Below are positions 218-9,804 of a stretch of 33,788 nt of DNA, one piece after another. Source of the stretch: a candidate division NC10 bacterium CSP1-5 (GTDB taxonomy: Bacteria > Methylomirabilota > Methylomirabilia > Methylomirabilales > CSP1-5); contig LDXR01000024.1 in assembly GCA_001443495.1 (NCBI GenBank), positions 1 through 33,788 on the forward strand, in the 5' to 3' direction. Position numbers and translations under genes: made by a program. The notes beneath the pieces are model-generated. The model was not told the DNA's origin. It saw only the letters and a program-made list of their open reading frames with translations, and searched no databases. Numbering within the stretch: the stretch's first letter is position 1; every line of letters starts with the position of its first letter.

Positions 218-243
218 GCGGTTTGTCTCCGGGGAAACGAGCC

Positions 244-1023
244 ATGGCGATCGAGGCGGTGAAGCATGCGGGGGATCGGGGCGCTGCTCCGACAGCGCTC
301 CGGAAGGATGCCTGGTGGGTTCAGCCCGCCCTCACGGTCCTGGGGCTCGGCGCCTTTATCGTGTACTCTACGTGGGCGGCGTTCCAGAATGCCTATTACT
401 ACGCGGATCCATATCTCTCGCCTTTCTATTCTCCCTGCGTTGCCGCGAACTGCCAGCACCTCACAGTCCAGCTCGTGGGTTCGTGGTGGACCTGGTCCCC
501 CGCCTTTTTAATCCTGTGGGCGCCGGGGGTCTTCCGCCTCACGTGTTACTATTACCGAAAGGCGTATTATCGGTCATTCTGGTGGGCGCCGCCCGCCTGT
601 GCGATGCCTGATGCGCGCCGGGGGTATGATGGCGAAACCTCCTTTCCCCTCGTCTTTCAGAACATCCATCGCTACACCTTTTATCTCGCTGTGCTCTTTA
701 TCGTCATCCTGACCTGGGATGCCATATTGGCGCTCCGGTTCCCTGATGGTTTCGGGGTCGGGGTCGGGACGCTCGTCCTCTGGGTCAACGTGGTGCTGCT
801 CGCCCTGTACACGTTTTCCTGCCACTCCTGCCGGCATCTGTGTGGGGGGCATGTGGATATCTTCTCCAGGGCGCCGTTTCGATACCGGATCTGGCATCGG
901 CTGAGCATGCTGAACGAGCGACACGCCCTCTTCGCCTGGTTGAGTCTGACCAGCGTGGGGCTGGCCGACCTGTACGTCCGGCTGGTCGCAATGGGGATTC
1001 TTCGCGACGTGAGGTTGCTCTAA
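244..1023 (+). CDS. sdhC: Succinate dehydrogenase membrane anchor, type F-like SdhC
   Basis: A 259-residue integral membrane protein with about five hydrophobic segments (roughly residues 25-48, 82-102, 143-165, 173-193 and 226-250). It lies directly upstream of sdhA and overlaps it by one base. It does not look like the classical heme b SdhC/SdhD anchors. A Cys/His cluster, CHSCRHLCGGH at 193-203, sits at the end of the fourth segment, and C65, C70 and H72 lie in the loop after the first. The anchor-flavoprotein-FeS order and a single five-helix anchor match mycobacterial Sdh1 (type F complex II), whose SdhC carries a membrane-embedded Rieske-type [2Fe-2S] cluster with two His ligands. The cluster here is inferred from these residues. 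ATG 244 follows a GGGGAAA ribosome site at 231-237; a TTG 21 bp upstream lacks one. Family assignment is by context and motif, not by alignment. Confidence 0.8.
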   Translation: MAIEAVKHAGDRGAAPTALRKDAWWVQPALTVLGLGAFIVYSTWAAFQNAYYYADPYLSPFYSPCVAANCQHLTVQLVGSWWTWSPAFLILWAPGVFRLTCYYYRKAYYRSFWWAPPACAMPDARRGYDGETSFPLVFQNIHRYTFYLAVLFIVILTWDAILALRFPDGFGVGVGTLVLWVNVVLLALYTFSCHSCRHLCGGHVDIFSRAPFRYRIWHRLSMLNERHALFAWLSLTSVGLADLYVRLVAMGILRDVRLL

Positions 1024-2825
1024 TGGCGGACGAGAAATACGAGACGCACGAATACGATGTGATCGTCATTGGCGCCGGGGGGGCCGGGCTCCGTGCCGCT
1101 ATCGAGGCGTCGGCGCAGGGCGTCCGGACGGCGCTGATCTGCAAGTCGCTGCTGGGCAAGGCGCACACGGTCATGGCCGAGGGGGGAATTGCTGCGGCCC
1201 TGGGGAACGTCTACCCCGAAGATAACTGGCAGGTGCACTTCCGCGATACGATGCGCGGGGGCAAGATGCTGAATAACTGGCGCATGGCGCAGCTCCATGC
1301 ACAGGAGGCGCCGGCGCGCGTCGTCGAGCTGGAGGCGTGGGGGGCGCTCTTCGACCGGACCAAGGACGGACGGATTCTCCAGCGAGACTTCGGCGGCCAT
1401 CGCTACGCGCGGTTGGCCCACGTCGGCGACCGCACCGGCCTGGAGATGATCCGGACCCTGCAACAGCACGCCGTGCACAAGGGGATCGACGTCTTCATGG
1501 AGTGCACCATCGTCCGTCTCCTCAAGGAGGGGGAGCGGGCGTGCGGGGCCTTCGGATACTGGCGGGAGACCGGCCGCTTTGTGGTCTTCAAGGCCAAGGC
1601 GGTGGTCCTTGCGACAGGTGGCATCGGCAAGGCCTGGAAGATCACCTCGAACTCCTGGGAGTACACGGGCGACGGCCACGCCCTGGCCTACGGGGTGGGG
1701 GCCGATCTGATCGACATGGAGTTCGTCCAATTCCATCCGACGGGAATGGTCTGGCCCCCGAGCGTCCGCGGCATCCTGGTCACCGAAGGGGTCCGGGGAG
1801 ATGGCGGGACCCTGAAGAATGCCCTCGGGGAGCGCTTCATGTTCAACTACATCCCGGAATTCTTCCGGGCCGAGACGGCGGAGACGGAAGCAGAGGCCGA
1901 TGGGTGGTACACCGATAAGAAGAAAAACCGGCGTACGCCCGATCTCCTGCCGCGGGACGAGGTGGCGCGGGCCATCGTGGCGGAGATCAAGGCAGGGCGC
2001 GGGAGTCCTCACGGGGGTGTCTTCCTCGATATCGCCTCGCGCCGCGATCCCGAGACCATCAAGCGGCGCCTCCCCTCGATGTACCACCAGTTCAAGGAGC
2101 TTGCCGATGTCGACATCACCAAGCAGCCGATGGAGGTAGGGCCGACCTGCCATTATGCCATGGGCGGGGTGCGCGTCGATGCCGACACCACCGCGGCCAC
2201 GGTGCCGGGGCTCTTCGCCGCCGGGGAGGTGGCGGGGGGGATGCACGGCGCGAACCGCCTGGGGGGAAACTCCCTCTCGGACTTGGTCGTCTTTGGGCGA
2301 CGCGCGGGCCTCTACGCCGCGGAGTACGCAAAGCGCTCCCCCGGGTCGTTCACAGTCGACGCCGGGCAGCTCGGGGCCATCGCGCGGGAGTGCCTGGAGC
2401 CGTTCGAGCGGGGCGGCGATGAGAACCCCTACACGGTCCACCGCGACCTGCAGGAGTGCATGCAGATCCTGGTGGGCATCATTCGCAACGAGGGCGAGCT
2501 GAAAAAGGCGCTGGAGGAGCTGGCGGTGCTCCGGGAACGGCAGGGACGGGTACGAGTAGCCGGGAACCGTCAGTACAACCCCGGCTGGCACCTGGCCATG
2601 GATCTCCACTCGATGCTCACCGTCTCGGAAGCGGTCGCCCGCGCCGCCCTGGAGCGCAAGGAGAGCCGCGGGGCGCATACGCGCGAGGACTATCCGCGGA
2701 TGGATCCGACATTCGGCAAGGTCAACGTGGTGGTGCGTCGCGTCGGGGACGCGATGTCCGTGTCGCAAGAGCCACTTCCCCAGATGCCCGACGACCTGAG
2801 GCGGCTGTTCGAGGAGAGCAAGTAA
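1023..2825 (+). CDS. sdhA: Succinate dehydrogenase flavoprotein subunit
   Basis: A 600-residue flavoprotein that oxidises succinate to fumarate and passes electrons to SdhB. The N-terminal dinucleotide fold VIVIGAGGAGLRAA is at residues 13-26. H48 in KAHTVMAEGG corresponds to the histidine that binds FAD covalently in this family. Later come the FHPTGM substrate-site motif, HGGVFLDIASR, GPTCHYAMGGVRVD and the FAD-capping GANRLGGNSLSDLVVFGRRAG region. Length is typical. The ATG overlaps the sdhC stop by one base (TAATG), indicating translational coupling. A longer in-frame reading upstream would run through sdhC and is not the real start. Fumarate reductase activity is possible in principle, but the TCA neighbours favour succinate oxidation. 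Confidence 0.96.
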   Translation: MADEKYETHEYDVIVIGAGGAGLRAAIEASAQGVRTALICKSLLGKAHTVMAEGGIAAALGNVYPEDNWQVHFRDTMRGGKMLNNWRMAQLHAQEAPARVVELEAWGALFDRTKDGRILQRDFGGHRYARLAHVGDRTGLEMIRTLQQHAVHKGIDVFMECTIVRLLKEGERACGAFGYWRETGRFVVFKAKAVVLATGGIGKAWKITSNSWEYTGDGHALAYGVGADLIDMEFVQFHPTGMVWPPSVRGILVTEGVRGDGGTLKNALGERFMFNYIPEFFRAETAETEAEADGWYTDKKKNRRTPDLLPRDEVARAIVAEIKAGRGSPHGGVFLDIASRRDPETIKRRLPSMYHQFKELADVDITKQPMEVGPTCHYAMGGVRVDADTTAATVPGLFAAGEVAGGMHGANRLGGNSLSDLVVFGRRAGLYAAEYAKRSPGSFTVDAGQLGAIARECLEPFERGGDENPYTVHRDLQECMQILVGIIRNEGELKKALEELAVLRERQGRVRVAGNRQYNPGWHLAMDLHSMLTVSEAVARAALERKESRGAHTREDYPRMDPTFGKVNVVVRRVGDAMSVSQEPLPQMPDDLRRLFEESK

Positions 2826-3575
2826 ATGGCTGACGTGACCGTACGGGTCTGGCGGGGGAACGCGCAGGGCGGCGCCTTTCACGAATACCGGGTCCCGGTC
2901 GAGGAGGGCATGGTGGTCCTGGATGTCCTGCATCGGATCCAGGCGATCCACGCCAACGACCTCGCTCTCCGCTGGAATTGCAAGGCGGGGAAGTGCGGCT
3001 CGTGCGGCGCAGAGGTGAACGGGCATCCACGGCTGACCTGTATGACCCGCATGAACATCTTCACGCCGGGCGAGACGATCACCGTGGCGCCGATGAAGAC
3101 CTTCCCGATCATCAAGGACCTCGTCACGGACGTGTCCTTCAACTTCCAGGTCGCGAAGAAGATTCCCGCCTTCCAGTCGCGCCCCCCGGATGCGCCGGAC
3201 GGGAGCTGGCGGATGATGCAGGAGGACATTGACCGGGTCCAGGAGTTCCGCAAGTGCATCGAGTGTTTTCTCTGCCAGAACGTCTGCCACGTCATCCGTG
3301 ACCACGAAGGGAAAAAGCAGCACTTCGCCGGTCCGCGCTTCTTTGTCCGGCTGGCGGAGCTGGAGATGCACCCGCTGGACACCGGCACGCGGACCGGTCT
3401 CGTCAAGGAGTTCGCCGGCATTGGGCTGTGCAACATCACGAAGTGCTGCACCGAGGTCTGCCCAGAGCACATCCGCATCACCGATAATGCCATTATCCCA
3501 CTGAAGGAGCGGGTCGTGGACGAGCACTACGACCCGGTCGTGTGGCTGCTGCGAAAGGTCCTCGGCAAGCGGTAG
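2826..3575 (+). CDS. sdhB: Succinate dehydrogenase iron-sulfur subunit
   Basis: A 249-residue electron-transfer subunit linking the SdhA flavin to the membrane anchor. All three cluster motifs are intact. C52, C57, C60 and C72 form the plant-ferredoxin-type [2Fe-2S] site. C144, C147, C150 and C154 (CIECFLCQNVC) form the [4Fe-4S] site. C202, C207/C208 and C212 (CNITKCCTEVC) lie in the region of the [3Fe-4S] and remaining [4Fe-4S] ligands. The first cluster keeps the usual fourth ligand as Cys. The ATG begins on the base after the sdhA stop, so the two are co-translated. The next gene is 120 bp away. The C-terminal half, with FLCQNVCHVIRDHEG, resembles the mycobacterial Sdh1 type more than the proteobacterial one, which agrees with the unusual anchor. 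Confidence 0.96.
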   Translation: MADVTVRVWRGNAQGGAFHEYRVPVEEGMVVLDVLHRIQAIHANDLALRWNCKAGKCGSCGAEVNGHPRLTCMTRMNIFTPGETITVAPMKTFPIIKDLVTDVSFNFQVAKKIPAFQSRPPDAPDGSWRMMQEDIDRVQEFRKCIECFLCQNVCHVIRDHEGKKQHFAGPRFFVRLAELEMHPLDTGTRTGLVKEFAGIGLCNITKCCTEVCPEHIRITDNAIIPLKERVVDEHYDPVVWLLRKVLGKR

Positions 3576-3695: not shown

Positions 3696-4331
3696 GTGAA
3701 GATTCACGAGTATCAGGCCAAGGCGATTCTGACGGAGTTCGGGGTGCCCATCCCCCGGTCCTACGCCCTGTTCATCCTGCGGGAGCTTACCAGTGTCTTT
3801 GTGGGGCTGTTTGCCGTTGGCCTGCTGTGGCACCTCCGGGTGTTAATGGAGGGCCCGGAGGCCTATGCGTACTTCCTCGCCCAGTTGCGGAGACCGATCT
3901 TCGTAGCCCTCAATAGTGTCGTCTTGCTCTTCATTCTCTTTCATACCATTAGCTGGTTCAACTTGGCTCCAAAGGCGATGGTCGTGCGACCCAGCACACC
4001 GCTCTTCCGGACCCTGTTCGGCGCGGGGGGGACGATCGCAGCACTCCTCTTCCCCGTCCATCTCATGTTGAGCGGGTTGGCCTTTCCGTTGGGGGCGCTC
4101 GAAGCCCCCAGCTACGATTTCCTGTACGGCCTGGTGGGGCATCCCGTCACACGGCTGTATCTGTTGGTCATCATTACCCTTCCGCTGTTCCACTGGGCCC
4201 ATCGGTTCCTCTATACACTCTACAATGTTCTGCAGTTGAAACATCTGTACCGCTTCATCGCTGTGCTCTGCTACAGTGCCGTCCTTCTCGGAAGCGCCGT
4301 AGCGGCCTATACGGTGTGGCGTATTCCCTAG
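3696..4331 (+). CDS. Chimeric membrane protein: SucC-like leader fused to FrdC-FrdD-like anchor
   Basis: A 211-residue protein in three parts. Residues 1-21 ([18 protein letters not shown]) are the start of a succinyl-CoA synthetase beta subunit. Thirty-four consecutive bases after the first base of the start codon match the local sucC start near 8632. Residues 22-98 match fumarate reductase FrdC from its first helix (LRELTSVFVGLF) through its second (LLFILFHTISWFNLAPKA), with E30 and H83 at the positions of the E. coli quinone-site residues E29 and H82. Residues 99-211 match FrdD (PLFRTLFGAGG, then LPLFHWAHR), with H169 near FrdD H80. The FrdC N-terminus and third helix are absent. About five membrane helices remain. 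Starts at GTG with a weak upstream AGGCG. No frdA/frdB lies nearby; sdhA/sdhB are just upstream. Whether it is expressed and pairs with SdhAB is unknown. Confidence 0.8.
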   Translation: MKIHEYQAKAILTEFGVPIPRSYALFILRELTSVFVGLFAVGLLWHLRVLMEGPEAYAYFLAQLRRPIFVALNSVVLLFILFHTISWFNLAPKAMVVRPSTPLFRTLFGAGGTIAALLFPVHLMLSGLAFPLGALEAPSYDFLYGLVGHPVTRLYLLVIITLPLFHWAHRFLYTLYNVLQLKHLYRFIAVLCYSAVLLGSAVAAYTVWRIP

Positions 4332-4479: not shown

Positions 4480-7218
4480 ATGAAGTACCGGGACGAATTT
4501 GGTGCCAAGCGTGCTCTGGAGAGCGTGGGTGGCACCCTTGCTTACTTTGATATCAACGCCCTCGAGAAGCGGGGGATTGCCCGCGTCTCAACGCTTCCCT
4601 TCTCGATCAAGGTCATGCTGGAGAGCATCCTGCGCAATGTGGACGGCTACCAGGTGCTGCCCGGAGACGTGGAGGCCCTCGCCCGTTGGCAGCCGGAGCC
4701 CGGGGAGATCAACGTGCCCCTGATGCTGGGCCGGGTGGTTCTCCAGGACTTCACCGGCGTGCCGGTGGCCGTGGACCTGGCAGCCATGCGGAGCGCCATG
4801 GCCCGCCTGGGGGCCGACCCCAAGCGGATCAACCCCCTCGTCCCCGCGGACCTGGTGATCGACCACTCGGTGCAGGTGGACTTCTTCGGGACCACCGACG
4901 CCTTCCGCGCCAATGTGGAGAAGGAGTACGAGCGCAATCGGGAGCGGTACACCCTGCTGAAGTGGGCGCAAAAGTCGCTCACCAACTTCCGGGTGGTGCC
5001 ACCCGGGGCCGGGATTGTCCACCAGGTGAATCTGGAGTACCTCGCCAAGGTGGTCATGACCCAGCGAAGGAATGGGGAGACCTACGCCTTTCCCGACACC
5101 CTGGTGGGGACCGACTCGCACACCACCATGATCAACGGCCTGGGGGTGCTGGGGTGGGGTGTCGGCGGCATCGAGGCCGAGGCGGTGATGGTGGGACAGC
5201 CCTACTATATGCTGGCCCCCAAGGTGGTGGGCTTCAAGCTCACGGGGGAGCTACCCGAGGGTGCCACGGCCACCGACCTGGTCCTCACGATCACCCAGCG
5301 GCTCCGTCAATACGGGGTGGTCGACAAATTTGTCGAGTTCTACGGCCCGGGTCTCCGCAAGCTCTCGGTGGCAGACCGGGCCACCATCGCCAACATGTCT
5401 CCCGAATACGGAGCCACCATGGGCTTCTTCCCGGTGGACGAGGAGACCCTGACGTACCTTCGCCTGACGGGGCGGGACCCCGCGCTGGTAGATTTGGTAG
5501 AGCGGTACACCAAGGCCGTGGGCCTCTTCTTGACGGACGGGGCGCCAGAGCCCCTCTTCTCCACGACTCTGCAGCTCGACATGTCCACCGTGGAGCCCAG
5601 CCTTGCAGGGCCGAAGCGCCCCCAGGACCGGGTGTCTCTGAAGGAGGCGAAGAGCAGCTTCCTCGAGCACCGGATGAGACCCCTCAAGGAACGGGGCTTC
5701 GGACTGAATGAGGAGGAGCTCCAGAGGCGGGTCAGCGTAAAGCGAGAGAGCGAAACGTTTGACGTCGCCCATGGCTCGGTGGTCATTGCCGCCATTACCT
5801 CTTGTACCAACACCTCCAACCCTTCGGTGATGCTCGGGGCCGGGCTCTTGGCGAAGAACGCTTTGGAGGCGGGTCTCCGCGTCCAGCCTTGGGTGAAGAC
5901 CTCCTTAGCCCCGGGCTCCAAGGTCGTCACCGACTACCTTCAGGCCTCGGGATTGATGTCCTCCTTGGAGGCCCTCCGCTTCCACCTGGTGGGATATGGC
6001 TGCACCACGTGCATCGGTAACTCGGGCCCCCTGCCGGAGGACATCGGCAAAGCCGTTGATCAGGGAAATCTGGTCGGCGTGGCTGTCCTCTCCGGGAACC
6101 GGAACTTCGAGGGACGCATCCATCCGCAGGTGAAGGCCAACTACTTGGCCTCGCCCATGCTGGTCGTGGCGTACGCCCTCGCCGGGCGGATTGACATTGA
6201 CTTTGGCACCGAGCCGGTCGGCTATGGCCCCAGCGGCAGGCCCGTCTCCCTCAAGGACATTTGGCCGACCCAGGAACAGATCCGGGAGACGATCCGAAAA
6301 ACCCTGGACCCCAAGATGTTCAAGGAAGAGTACGGTAGAGTGTTCGACGGGGATGAGCATTGGAAGACCCTGCCCGCCTCTGAGAGCGAGTTGTACACGT
6401 GGGACCCCGACTCGACCTACATCCAGGAACCCCCCTTCTTTCAGGACCTGTCGCTCGAGCCCCCGCCCGTTCGGGACATCCGCGGGGCACGGGTGCTGGC
6501 GGTCGCGGGAGACTCTGTGACCACCGACCACATCTCACCTGCCGGCTCGTTCTCGGCCAACAGCCCTGCGGGTCAGTACCTCATCGGCAAGGGTGTCTCC
6601 CCCAAGGACTTCAATTCGTACGGGTCCCGCCGCGGCAACCACGAGGTGATGATGCGGGGCAGCTTCGCCAACATCCGCTTCAAGAACCTCCTGCTCGATG
6701 GGGTAGAGGGATGGGTCACCCTGAAGTTCCCCGAAGGGAAACAGATGAGCATCTTTGACGCGGCCATCCAGTACAAGGCGGAAGGCACCCCCCTGATCAT
6801 CCTGGCTGGCAAGGAGTATGGTTCAGGCTCAAGCCGCGACTGGGCTGCGAAAGGGCCCTACCTCCTCGGCGTCAAGGCGGTTATCGCCGAGTCCTTTGAG
6901 CGGATCCACCGATCCAACCTGGTGGGGATGGGTGTGCTGCCCCTGCAGTTCAAGCCGGAGGAGAGCGTGCAAACGCTGGGCCTGACCGGCCGAGAGGTGC
7001 ACGACATCCTGGGCTTGGAGGAGGGTCTTCGGCCGGGGAAGGAGCTCACCGTTGTGGCTCGGCGGGAGGACGGGGGTGAGTGCCGCTTCACGGCCATTGC
7101 ACGGGTGGACACACCCGTCGAGGTGGACTACTACAAAAATGGCGGCATTCTCCAGACAGTCCTCCGCCGTCTCGTGAAGGCGCCCAAGGATGGTAAGGCG
7201 GGCAGTCCAGCACGGTGA
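4480..7218 (+). CDS. acnA: Aconitate hydratase, AcnA/IRP type
   Basis: A 912-residue aconitase that interconverts citrate and isocitrate using a [4Fe-4S] cluster. The cluster ligands are C442 ([11 protein letters not shown]) and C508/C511 (GCTTCIGN), offset by seven from E. coli AcnA C435/C501/C504. The C-terminal swivel domain contains [12 protein letters not shown] and [13 protein letters not shown]. The length is that of the AcnA/IRP1 family, not AcnB. ATG 4480 is preferred over the GTG directly before it because GGAGG at 4468-4472 then has a 7-bp spacing. The last base of its stop codon is the first base of the next gene, a type II NADH dehydrogenase, so the two should be co-translated. 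It supplies the step between citrate synthase and isocitrate dehydrogenase, both outside the window. Confidence 0.97.
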
Positions 7219-8504
7219 TGGAGAAGCCACATCATGTCGTCATCATCGGCGGCGGCTTTGGGGGGCTGTATGCGGCGCAATCGCTGAAGCGGACGCGGGT
7301 GCAGGTAACACTCCTCGATCGCCGCAACTTCCACCTCTTTCAGCCACTTCTGTATCAGGTAGCGACCGGGACCCTTTCGCCTGCCAACATCGCCGCACCC
7401 CTGAGGGCCATTCTCAAGCGCCAGGAAAACATCAGAGTGCTTTTGGCTGAGGCGATCGACATCGATGTGTCGAACCGCCGGGTGGTGCTGAGCGATGGCG
7501 AGGTGGGCTACGATACGCTGATCGTCGCCGCGGGCGTGCGGCATCACTACTTCGGTCGCGACGAATGGGAGAGGCTCGCGCCCGGGCTGAAAACGATCGA
7601 AGACGCGACGGAGATGCGGCGGCGCATCCTGGTGGCGTTTGAGGCCGCCGAGCGTGAGGGTGATCCTGAAAAACTCCGGGGCTGGTTGACGTTTGTCATC
7701 GTCGGCGGGGGTCCCACCGGGGTTGAGCTGGCCGGTGCGGTGGGAGAGATCGCGAGACACACACTCGCGCGTGACTTCCGGGCCATCAATCCGGCTGACG
7801 CGCGGATTGTGCTGGTGGAGGGGATGGACCGGGTGTTGCCTCCCTATCCCGCGTCCCTCTCGGCCAGGGCTGAAGCGGCGCTCAACCGGTTGGGCGTGAC
7901 CGTTCGGACCGGGGCGATGGTGACTGACATTCAACCGGATGTGATAACGATTCGCTCTGGCGAGCGGAACGAGCGGATCTCCACCCGAACGGTCTTGTGG
8001 GCGGCCGGCGTTCAGGCGTCTACCCTGGGCGGCATCCTCGCGTCTACCACAGGGGCTGCCGTTGACCGTGTCGGTCGCGTGGTGGTGGAGCCGGATCTGA
8101 GTGTCGTCGGGCATCCGGAGATCTTCGTGATTGGCGACCTGGCCCACTTCGGCCATCAGACCGGCAAGCCCCTCGCCGGTGTGGCGCCGGTGGCCATGCA
8201 GCAGGGCCGGTACGTGGCCACCCTGATCATGCGCAGGCTTCGGGGGGAGACCATGCCCCCGTTCCGCTACAGAGATCATGGGAACATGGCCACAATTGGG
8301 AGAGCCGAGGCGGTGGCCGACCTGGGGTGGGTCCGCTTCTCCGGCTTCTTCGCCTGGCTGGCCTGGCTGTTCATCCATCTGATCAACCTGGTGCAGTTTC
8401 AGAATCGGGTCCTCGTGCTGATCCAGTGGGCGTGGAACTATGCCACCTGGAACCGCTACGCCCGACTCATCACTGGGAAGAACCCGTTGCCGTTGCTGCG
8501 CTAA
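7218..8504 (+). CDS. ndh: Type II NADH:quinone oxidoreductase
   Basis: A 428-residue, non-proton-pumping NADH dehydrogenase: a membrane-bound FAD enzyme that passes electrons from NADH to quinone. Two dinucleotide-binding folds are visible, [14 protein letters not shown] near the N-terminus (FAD) and [19 protein letters not shown] near residue 160 (NADH). The conserved [15 protein letters not shown] follows the first fold, and VFVIGDLAH-type FAD-contact residues appear as [10 protein letters not shown]. The C-terminus ([19 protein letters not shown], then [15 protein letters not shown]) is hydrophobic and amphipathic and is the expected membrane anchor. Its ATG overlaps the acnA TGA by one base, a coupling that ties this respiratory enzyme to a TCA gene. 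A sulfide:quinone oxidoreductase is less likely because the sequence follows the Ndh pattern throughout. Confidence 0.93.
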
Positions 8505-8631: not shown

Positions 8632-9804
8632 ATGAAGATTCACGAGTATCAGGCCAAGGCGATTCTGGGGGAAGGCGGCGTGCCGGTGCCGGCGGGCGAG
8701 GTGGCCGACACACCGGCTGCCGCCAGGGCCGTTGCGGAGCGCCTCGGCGGCCGCGTGGTGGTCAAGGCCCAGGTCCACGCGGGGGGTCGGGGGAAGGCCG
8801 GGGGGATCAAGATTGCCGACGATCCTGGCGGGGCGGAGGCCGCCGCGCGGGCCATTCTTGGCATGAGACTCAAGACCCCCCAGACCCCGCCCGAGGGGAT
8901 CGAGGTCCGCAAGGTTCTGGTCGAGGAGGCCTCGAGCGTTGCCCGGGAGCTCTACCTCTCGGTGACTCTCGATCGGGCCCGTGCCAGCCATGTGGTCATG
9001 GCGTCGGAGGCAGGCGGCATGGAGATCGAAGAGGTCGCCGTCCGGCACCCCGAGAAGATTATTCGCGAGTGGGCGCACCCGGCCCTTGGCCTCCAGGACT
9101 TTCAGGCGCGCCGCGTGGCGTTCGGCCTCGGGCTCGCCGGCGAGCAGTTCAAGCAGGGGATCGGGTTGATCCGCAATCTCTTCAGGCTCTATCTCGCCAA
9201 GGATTGCTCGCTGGCAGAGATCAACCCTCTGGTCGTGACGACAGATGGGCGGGTCCTCGCCCTGGACGCAAAGCTGAACTTCGACGACAATGCGCTGTAC
9301 CGCCACGCGGATGTCGCGGCCCTGCGGGACATTCACGAGGAGGACCCCCTCGACGTCGAAGCCTCGAAGTTTAACCTGAACTACATCAAGCTTACCGGGA
9401 ACGTCGGGTGCATGGTGAACGGCGCGGGGCTCGCCATGGCCACCATGGACATCATCAAGCTGGCCGGTGGGGAACCGGCCAATTTCCTCGATGTCGGCGG
9501 CGGGGCGTCCGCCGAGCAGATCGAAAACGCCTTCCGTATCCTGTCGTCTGACCCGAGCGTGAAAGCGGTCTTCATCAACATCTTCGGCGGCATTCTCCGC
9601 TGTGACCGCCTGGCTGAGGGGATGATTGCTGCCGTGAAGAAACTCGGGTTGCGGCTGCCGGTTGTGGTGCGGATGGAGGGCACCAACGTCGAGCTAGGCA
9701 AAAAGATGCTGGCGGAGTCAGGGCTCAGCCTCGTTACGGCGGAGGACATGGCCGATGGGGCGCGGAAAGCCGTCGCGCTTGCCAGACGGGTTCAGAGTTC
9801 ATAG
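8632..9804 (+). CDS. sucC: Succinyl-CoA synthetase (ADP-forming) beta subunit
   Basis: A 390-residue ATP-grasp subunit that, with SucD, converts succinyl-CoA to succinate with synthesis of ATP or GTP. It begins [12 protein letters not shown] and continues with [18 protein letters not shown], the nucleotide-binding lobe, then [11 protein letters not shown] and [12 protein letters not shown], which are metal and nucleotide contacts. The C-terminal ligase domain includes LDVGGGAS and [11 protein letters not shown]. Length is close to the family norm. ATG 8632 follows GAGGTG at 8623-8628; a GTG six bases upstream lies inside that site. The final codons and stop fall inside a 7-bp repeat array, so the last few residues (VQSS) may have been contributed by the repeat. 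The first 11 codons are duplicated at 3696. Confidence 0.97.

Follow-up and report, generated by a model that had tools for sequence, protein, structure and literature searches.

An open frame in the genome of the candidate division NC10 bacterium CSP1-5 joins pieces of three genes, sucC, frdC and frdD, into a single reading frame. It runs from a GTG at 3696 to 4331 (+) of the window, the whole stretch of 33,788 nucleotides analysed here (contig LDXR01000024.1), and encodes 211 residues uninterrupted by a stop or a frameshift. It is probably a chimeric leftover of a displaced fumarate reductase operon, and not a membrane anchor kept by selection. As all 211 codons are open, with no disabling stop or frameshift, we speak of a leftover or an orphan gene rather than of a proven pseudogene.

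Residues 1-20 of the fused frame are the N-terminus of the SucC beta subunit, residues 21-98 are helices I and II of FrdC, and a complete FrdD occupies residues 98-211. At the DNA level these parts are a sucC 5' stub (3696-3755, +), made up of the 20 opening codons of the gene for succinyl-CoA synthetase beta; a partial frdC, hereafter frdC' (3756-3988, +), in frame with the stub and coding for helices I and II only; and frdD (3985-4331, +), which has all three helices and lacks a start codon of its own. Fumarate_red_C (PF02300) matches residues 21-116 with an E-value of 1.7e-21, and Fumarate_red_D (PF02313) matches residues 98-206 with an E-value of 8.4e-21; values around 1e-21 rule out plain chance similarity to FrdC and FrdD. 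The PF01127 family (Sdh_cyt), an indicator of kinship with type B anchors, scores 17.3 bits against the fused frame, under its cut-off of 25.8.

The single-chain FrdC-FrdD fusion recognized in the original prediction is thus borne out by the one frame and its two family matches. Its proposed start at 3759 has to be moved: the frame extends 63 bases further back, to the GTG at 3696, and includes the 20 sucC codons. The loss had been described as exactly one helix. Helix III of FrdC is indeed missing, with FrdD following directly; the conserved N-terminal segment of FrdC (KWYRRRxSVWWWLQ in relatives) is gone too. A class D anchor has a FrdC of three helices with an N-terminal cytoplasmic segment, and the FrdC part of the fused frame has two helices and no such segment. 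A scan of the plus strand for promoters and terminators found nothing.

In G005, a genome of the same genus, the gene order is icd-mdh-frdA-frdB-frdC-frdD-acnA-ndh-sucC-sucD. FrdC is normal there, with 138 residues, three helices and the N-terminal WWWL motif, and FrdD is separate. The window reads mdh, sdhC-sdhA-sdhB, sucC stub, frdC', frdD, acnA, ndh, sucC, sucD; compared with G005, it has sdhCAB and the sucC stub in place of frdA, frdB and the 5' end of frdC. Such synteny with an intact operon, with parts missing, is what a relic should display. On the left, the flank is native: the 3' end of mdh (malate dehydrogenase; 2-216, +) encodes 71 amino acids identical to G005 Mdh, and the DNA of 1-216 is 97.7% identical to that of G005, after which the homology ends. 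On the right, acnA (4480-7218, +) and ndh, which encodes an NADH dehydrogenase-like protein (7218-8504, +), are collinear with both G005 (95% and 90% amino-acid identity) and the genome G002 (93% and 88%), and the intact sucC (8632-9804, +) is collinear with G005 (96%).

The sucC stub shares 80% amino-acid identity with the intact sucC at 8632, and 35 bases starting at base two of the start codon are identical in both. In G003, also of the same genus, the order is sdhC-sdhA-sdhB-sucC-sucD, and sucC lies directly 3' of sdhB in relatives from the class as well; judging from this arrangement, a G003-type sdhB-sucC order could have been the origin of such a stub. Just upstream of sdhC in G003 (C131; L054:4820-5200), what remains of the N-terminal part of icd continues into what remains of the C-terminal part of mdh. 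It is another decayed joint within this TCA-cycle cluster of the genus; a fuller mdh lies on contig C242 of that genome.

The FrdC/FrdD joint falls on the tetramer TGCG (3985-3988, +), which in G005 is present on the frdC and on the frdD side, and the sequence across it is 111 bases (37 codons) shorter than in G005. DNA identity to G005, with no homology over sdhCAB, is 76.9% in frdC' (about 3755-3988) and 92.6% from 3985 on. The step from 77% to 93% falls exactly at the joint. Since frdC and frdD are equally diverged between other relatives (72% each between G005 and G082, for example), we read this step as a recombination breakpoint in a mosaic rather than as the mark of a faster-evolving gene. 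The segment sdhCAB-sucC'-frdC' would then have a history different from that of its flanks. Of the two genomes compared, the window's own (G000) is the likelier carrier of a replaced frdC, because the alien sdhCAB adjoins it there.

Joints of this kind might also be produced by the assembler, with one or both of them artificial and two separate loci in the cell. The assembly is a draft of 40 contigs, and the overlap at the joint measures four bases. A contig of G002 (L033:1-10, the start of C56) starts a single base ahead of the start codon of frdD, at the very site of the joint in the window; this may perhaps mark a variable region in that genus. Unlike in a random misjoin, however, the mdh and frdD-acnA flanks lie on a single contig and are ordered and oriented as in G005. 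A misjoined frd operon should have left a second frdC, frdB or frdA, and none was found in the G000 genome. Both joints are, moreover, in frame, which chance would give about once in nine cases and which counts against a relic as well. A chimeric contig is therefore rather unlikely in our view.

The enzyme encoded next to the fused frame is a class F complex II. Its sdhC (223-1023, +) encodes a single membrane anchor with a CHSCRH Rieske-type motif, which phmmer matches to SdhC of M. smegmatis Sdh1 (7d6v_C) with an E-value of 4.9e-75. The flavoprotein gene sdhA (1023-2825, +) and the iron-sulfur subunit gene sdhB (2826-3575, +) are both of Sdh1 type, according to the NCBIfam equivalog PRK07803 (1071 bits, cut-off 819) and PRK12386 (434 bits, cut-off 256), respectively. 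A Rieske-motif, Sdh1-type SdhC thus adjoins SdhA and SdhB, as is characteristic of class F, whose anchor is described as one subunit of six helices that carries a Rieske cluster in the membrane (PMC10238741). By family and by position, the SdhC of the window qualifies as the cognate anchor of the adjoining SdhAB, which should therefore need no second one. The SdhC of this class F enzyme, encoded with its partners at 223-3575 of the window, occurs in 53 of the 99 genomes searched, including G000 and one other genome of the same genus. In G037 (L055:2017-9405), frdABCD and sdhCAB are adjacent on one strand, so both types of complex II can coexist in the class.

A class D anchor is encoded with its cognate FrdA and FrdB. 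No E. coli-type FrdA or FrdB was found in the G000 genome, which is 99.7% complete by the tool's estimate, in a search with G005 as positive control. The single match to PF13085 (Fer2_3) in G000 is the SdhB of the window. Searched with the FrdB of G005, the genome yields only this SdhB, at no more than 34% identity, and a 658-residue frame that matches weakly; in G005 the same query finds itself. Two frames of G000 match FAD_binding_2 strongly. One is the SdhA of the window; the other, at C2:359874, is probably NadB and corresponds to a frame that G005 has beside its FrdA.

The fusion is private to one lineage, as a relic would be. We searched 95 genomes of the class for FrdC and FrdD (E <= 1e-8), and 20 of them, G000 included, carry one or both. 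The fusion is absent from all 18 other genomes that have both genes; in G002, frdC lies beyond the contig edge. A wider scan of named genomes, which partly covers the same ones, gave 79 loci with both genes, none of them fused. In every two-gene relative a stop or a change of frame separates the genes, which rules out a conserved architecture, and the homologues of like build that the original prediction called for are missing from the class genomes and two-gene loci scanned. One candidate, G015, looked unbroken in the search table; on translation, a stop turned up between its two genes. At 55 of the 79 loci frdC and frdD lie in the same reading frame, so that the loss of a multiple of three bases would fuse them. 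We found no description of an FrdC-FrdD fusion in the open-access literature, whose coverage is such that this absence says little.

FrdC without helix III is seen once more, on an Acidobacteria MAG contig (JACQDI010000684.1; L086:17-628). Relative to the locus L085, about 69 bases are missing in frame and this FrdC ends IRIGGKRLLLGG*; the FrdD of the contig is separate and retains its Trp (see below). It hints that FrdC can do without helix III.

Three residues of the fused frame, E30, H83 and H169, are the counterparts of FrdC E29, FrdC H82 and FrdD H80 of E. coli. Their positions are conserved in 71/71, 72/72 and 72/75 relatives, respectively, and to this extent the quinone-site residues are kept, as had been predicted. 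The prediction fails for one FrdD residue: 74/74 relatives have Trp at this position, and the fused frame has Arg105. Aligned to 1kf6_D, R105 falls on the Trp called W14 in E. coli FrdD, a residue of the quinol (QP) site. Given W105R, the set of quinone-site residues is not wholly kept. This substitution is one of several that fall where none of the class relatives examined varies, among them I100S, R172L, D177N, L187F and A196V; in frdD, W105R, R172L and D177N are private to G000 among the class relatives. Over the wider set of relatives, the position of T86 is Thr in 72/72, that of A196 is Ala in 74/74 and that of R172 is Arg or Lys in 72/75.

Several rate tests on these short genes gave moderately significant results, with p values uncorrected for the number of tests. 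Private codon changes in frdD are nonsynonymous and synonymous in the ratio 10:8 in G000, 0:7 in G005 and 4:10 in G002 (p 0.024), and acnA with ndh has no comparable shift (p 0.92). A two-ratio codon model gives frdD an omega of 0.29 on the G000 branch and 0.10 elsewhere (p 0.025), the former still below 1 (p 0.012). For frdC' the two values are 0.10 and 0.07 (p 0.67); for frdC' and frdD jointly, 0.19 and 0.10 (p 0.07). This pattern would fit constraint on part of the G000 branch and then relaxation, and a moderate relaxation is in keeping with a relic. An omega below 1 in frdD implies some constraint, either before or after the fusion, and weighs on the other side. The absence of a stop also speaks against a relic; only 2.7% of random substitutions in the frame create one, however, so it would be unsurprising to find the frame still open after some twenty neutral changes.

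We modelled the 211-residue protein alone with AlphaFold2, from a 40-row alignment of FrdC-FrdD read-throughs. The model is a compact five-helix bundle with a mean pLDDT of 87.4 and a pTM of 0.80, the SucC part being of low confidence; built from a family alignment, it says nothing on assembly or activity. It superposes on Wolinella QFR FrdC over 197 residues (Z 14.4); E. coli FrdD is matched by the second half of the model (Z 10.3). The fused protein is thus predicted to be a single chain whose five transmembrane helices are arranged as in complex II. In this respect the topological argument made earlier, that a workable fusion would have to lose helix III, holds good.

A well-folded model of type B likeness and the retention of E30, H83 and H169 count against a mere relic. 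Together with the open frame, the feasible topology, a branch omega below 1 and the resemblance to the anchors of Wolinella, Desulfovibrio gigas and Chloroflexus, they would suit a compact single-chain anchor of five helices at work, either docking with SdhAB or taking part in quinone chemistry beside it. We nevertheless hold this to be very unlikely: SdhAB has a class F anchor of its own, the genome is without QFR FrdAB, SucC residues replace the N-terminal segment of FrdC, the quinol-site Trp has become Arg, the fusion recurs in no second genome, and the nonsynonymous rate is raised. With these facts and the mosaic joint, the conclusion that the fusion reflects selection rather than decay is left without support. 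More specifically, there is only a slim chance that recombination turned a 3+3-helix pair into a working five-helix anchor for the new SdhAB or for an unknown partner. An open frame, a folded model and an omega below 1 are also what one would see if the protein had been recruited to another role, for example as a membrane protein unrelated to complex II; this is most improbable, as it has no positive sign in its favour, no conserved partner or context, and occurs in a single genome.

The preferred reading, that of a leftover, suggests the following course of events. The ancestor would have had a class D frdABCD between mdh and acnA, as G005 retains. A class F sdhCAB with a sucC segment, in a G003-like order, would have arrived between mdh and acnA by recombination, and frdA, frdB, the 5' end of frdC and most of the incoming sucC would have been lost. 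A first joint would have placed 20 sucC codons in frame ahead of frdC. A second, at the four-base TGCG common to frdC and frdD, would have removed helix III and fused the frames. The resulting SucC'-FrdC'-FrdD would have been left with no enzyme to anchor, because FrdAB is gone and Sdh1 carries its own anchor. It would then be an orphan or decaying gene without function, whose frame is not yet broken.

As a relic, the locus is a snapshot of a class F succinate dehydrogenase displacing a class D fumarate reductase in place, in an NC10-related lineage, with the joints of the complex II replacement still readable. It also calls for caution, as a by-product of recombination may show an open frame, conserved residues and a sensible topology. 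If the fusion did work, it would be a natural replay of a possible route to the single-chain type B anchors, and direct evidence of how two anchor chains become one.

Among known systems, the E. coli-type class D QFR (1kf6, 1l0v) shares PF02300 and PF02313 with the fused frame, along with FrdC helices I-II, FrdD helices I-III and the residues like E29, H82 and H80. Its FrdC and FrdD are two three-helix proteins, whereas the window has a single chain, which lacks helix III and the N-terminal segment of FrdC, has Arg for the QP-site Trp and is left with no FrdAB partner. The window's sdhCAB belongs with the class F complex II of Mycobacterium Sdh1 (7d6v); in known members of that class, the fused frame has no part in the complex. 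Type B anchors (Wolinella FrdC, 2bs4/1qlb; D. gigas, 5xmj; Chloroflexus, 9lay) likewise have five helices in one chain, and 188-199 of their residues superpose on the model with Z of 13.4-14.4. Identity to them is 10-13%, whereas the window sequence is plainly FrdC plus FrdD, with a recent and private joint. In M. bovis BCG Moreau, a 10-base poly-G insertion fuses FrdB to FrdC with both subunits complete, and the fused allele partly complements a knockout (PMC7835394). Unlike that fusion, the one in the window has lost parts as well as FrdAB; like it, it is a recent, lineage-specific mutation that fuses neighbouring frd subunits in frame.
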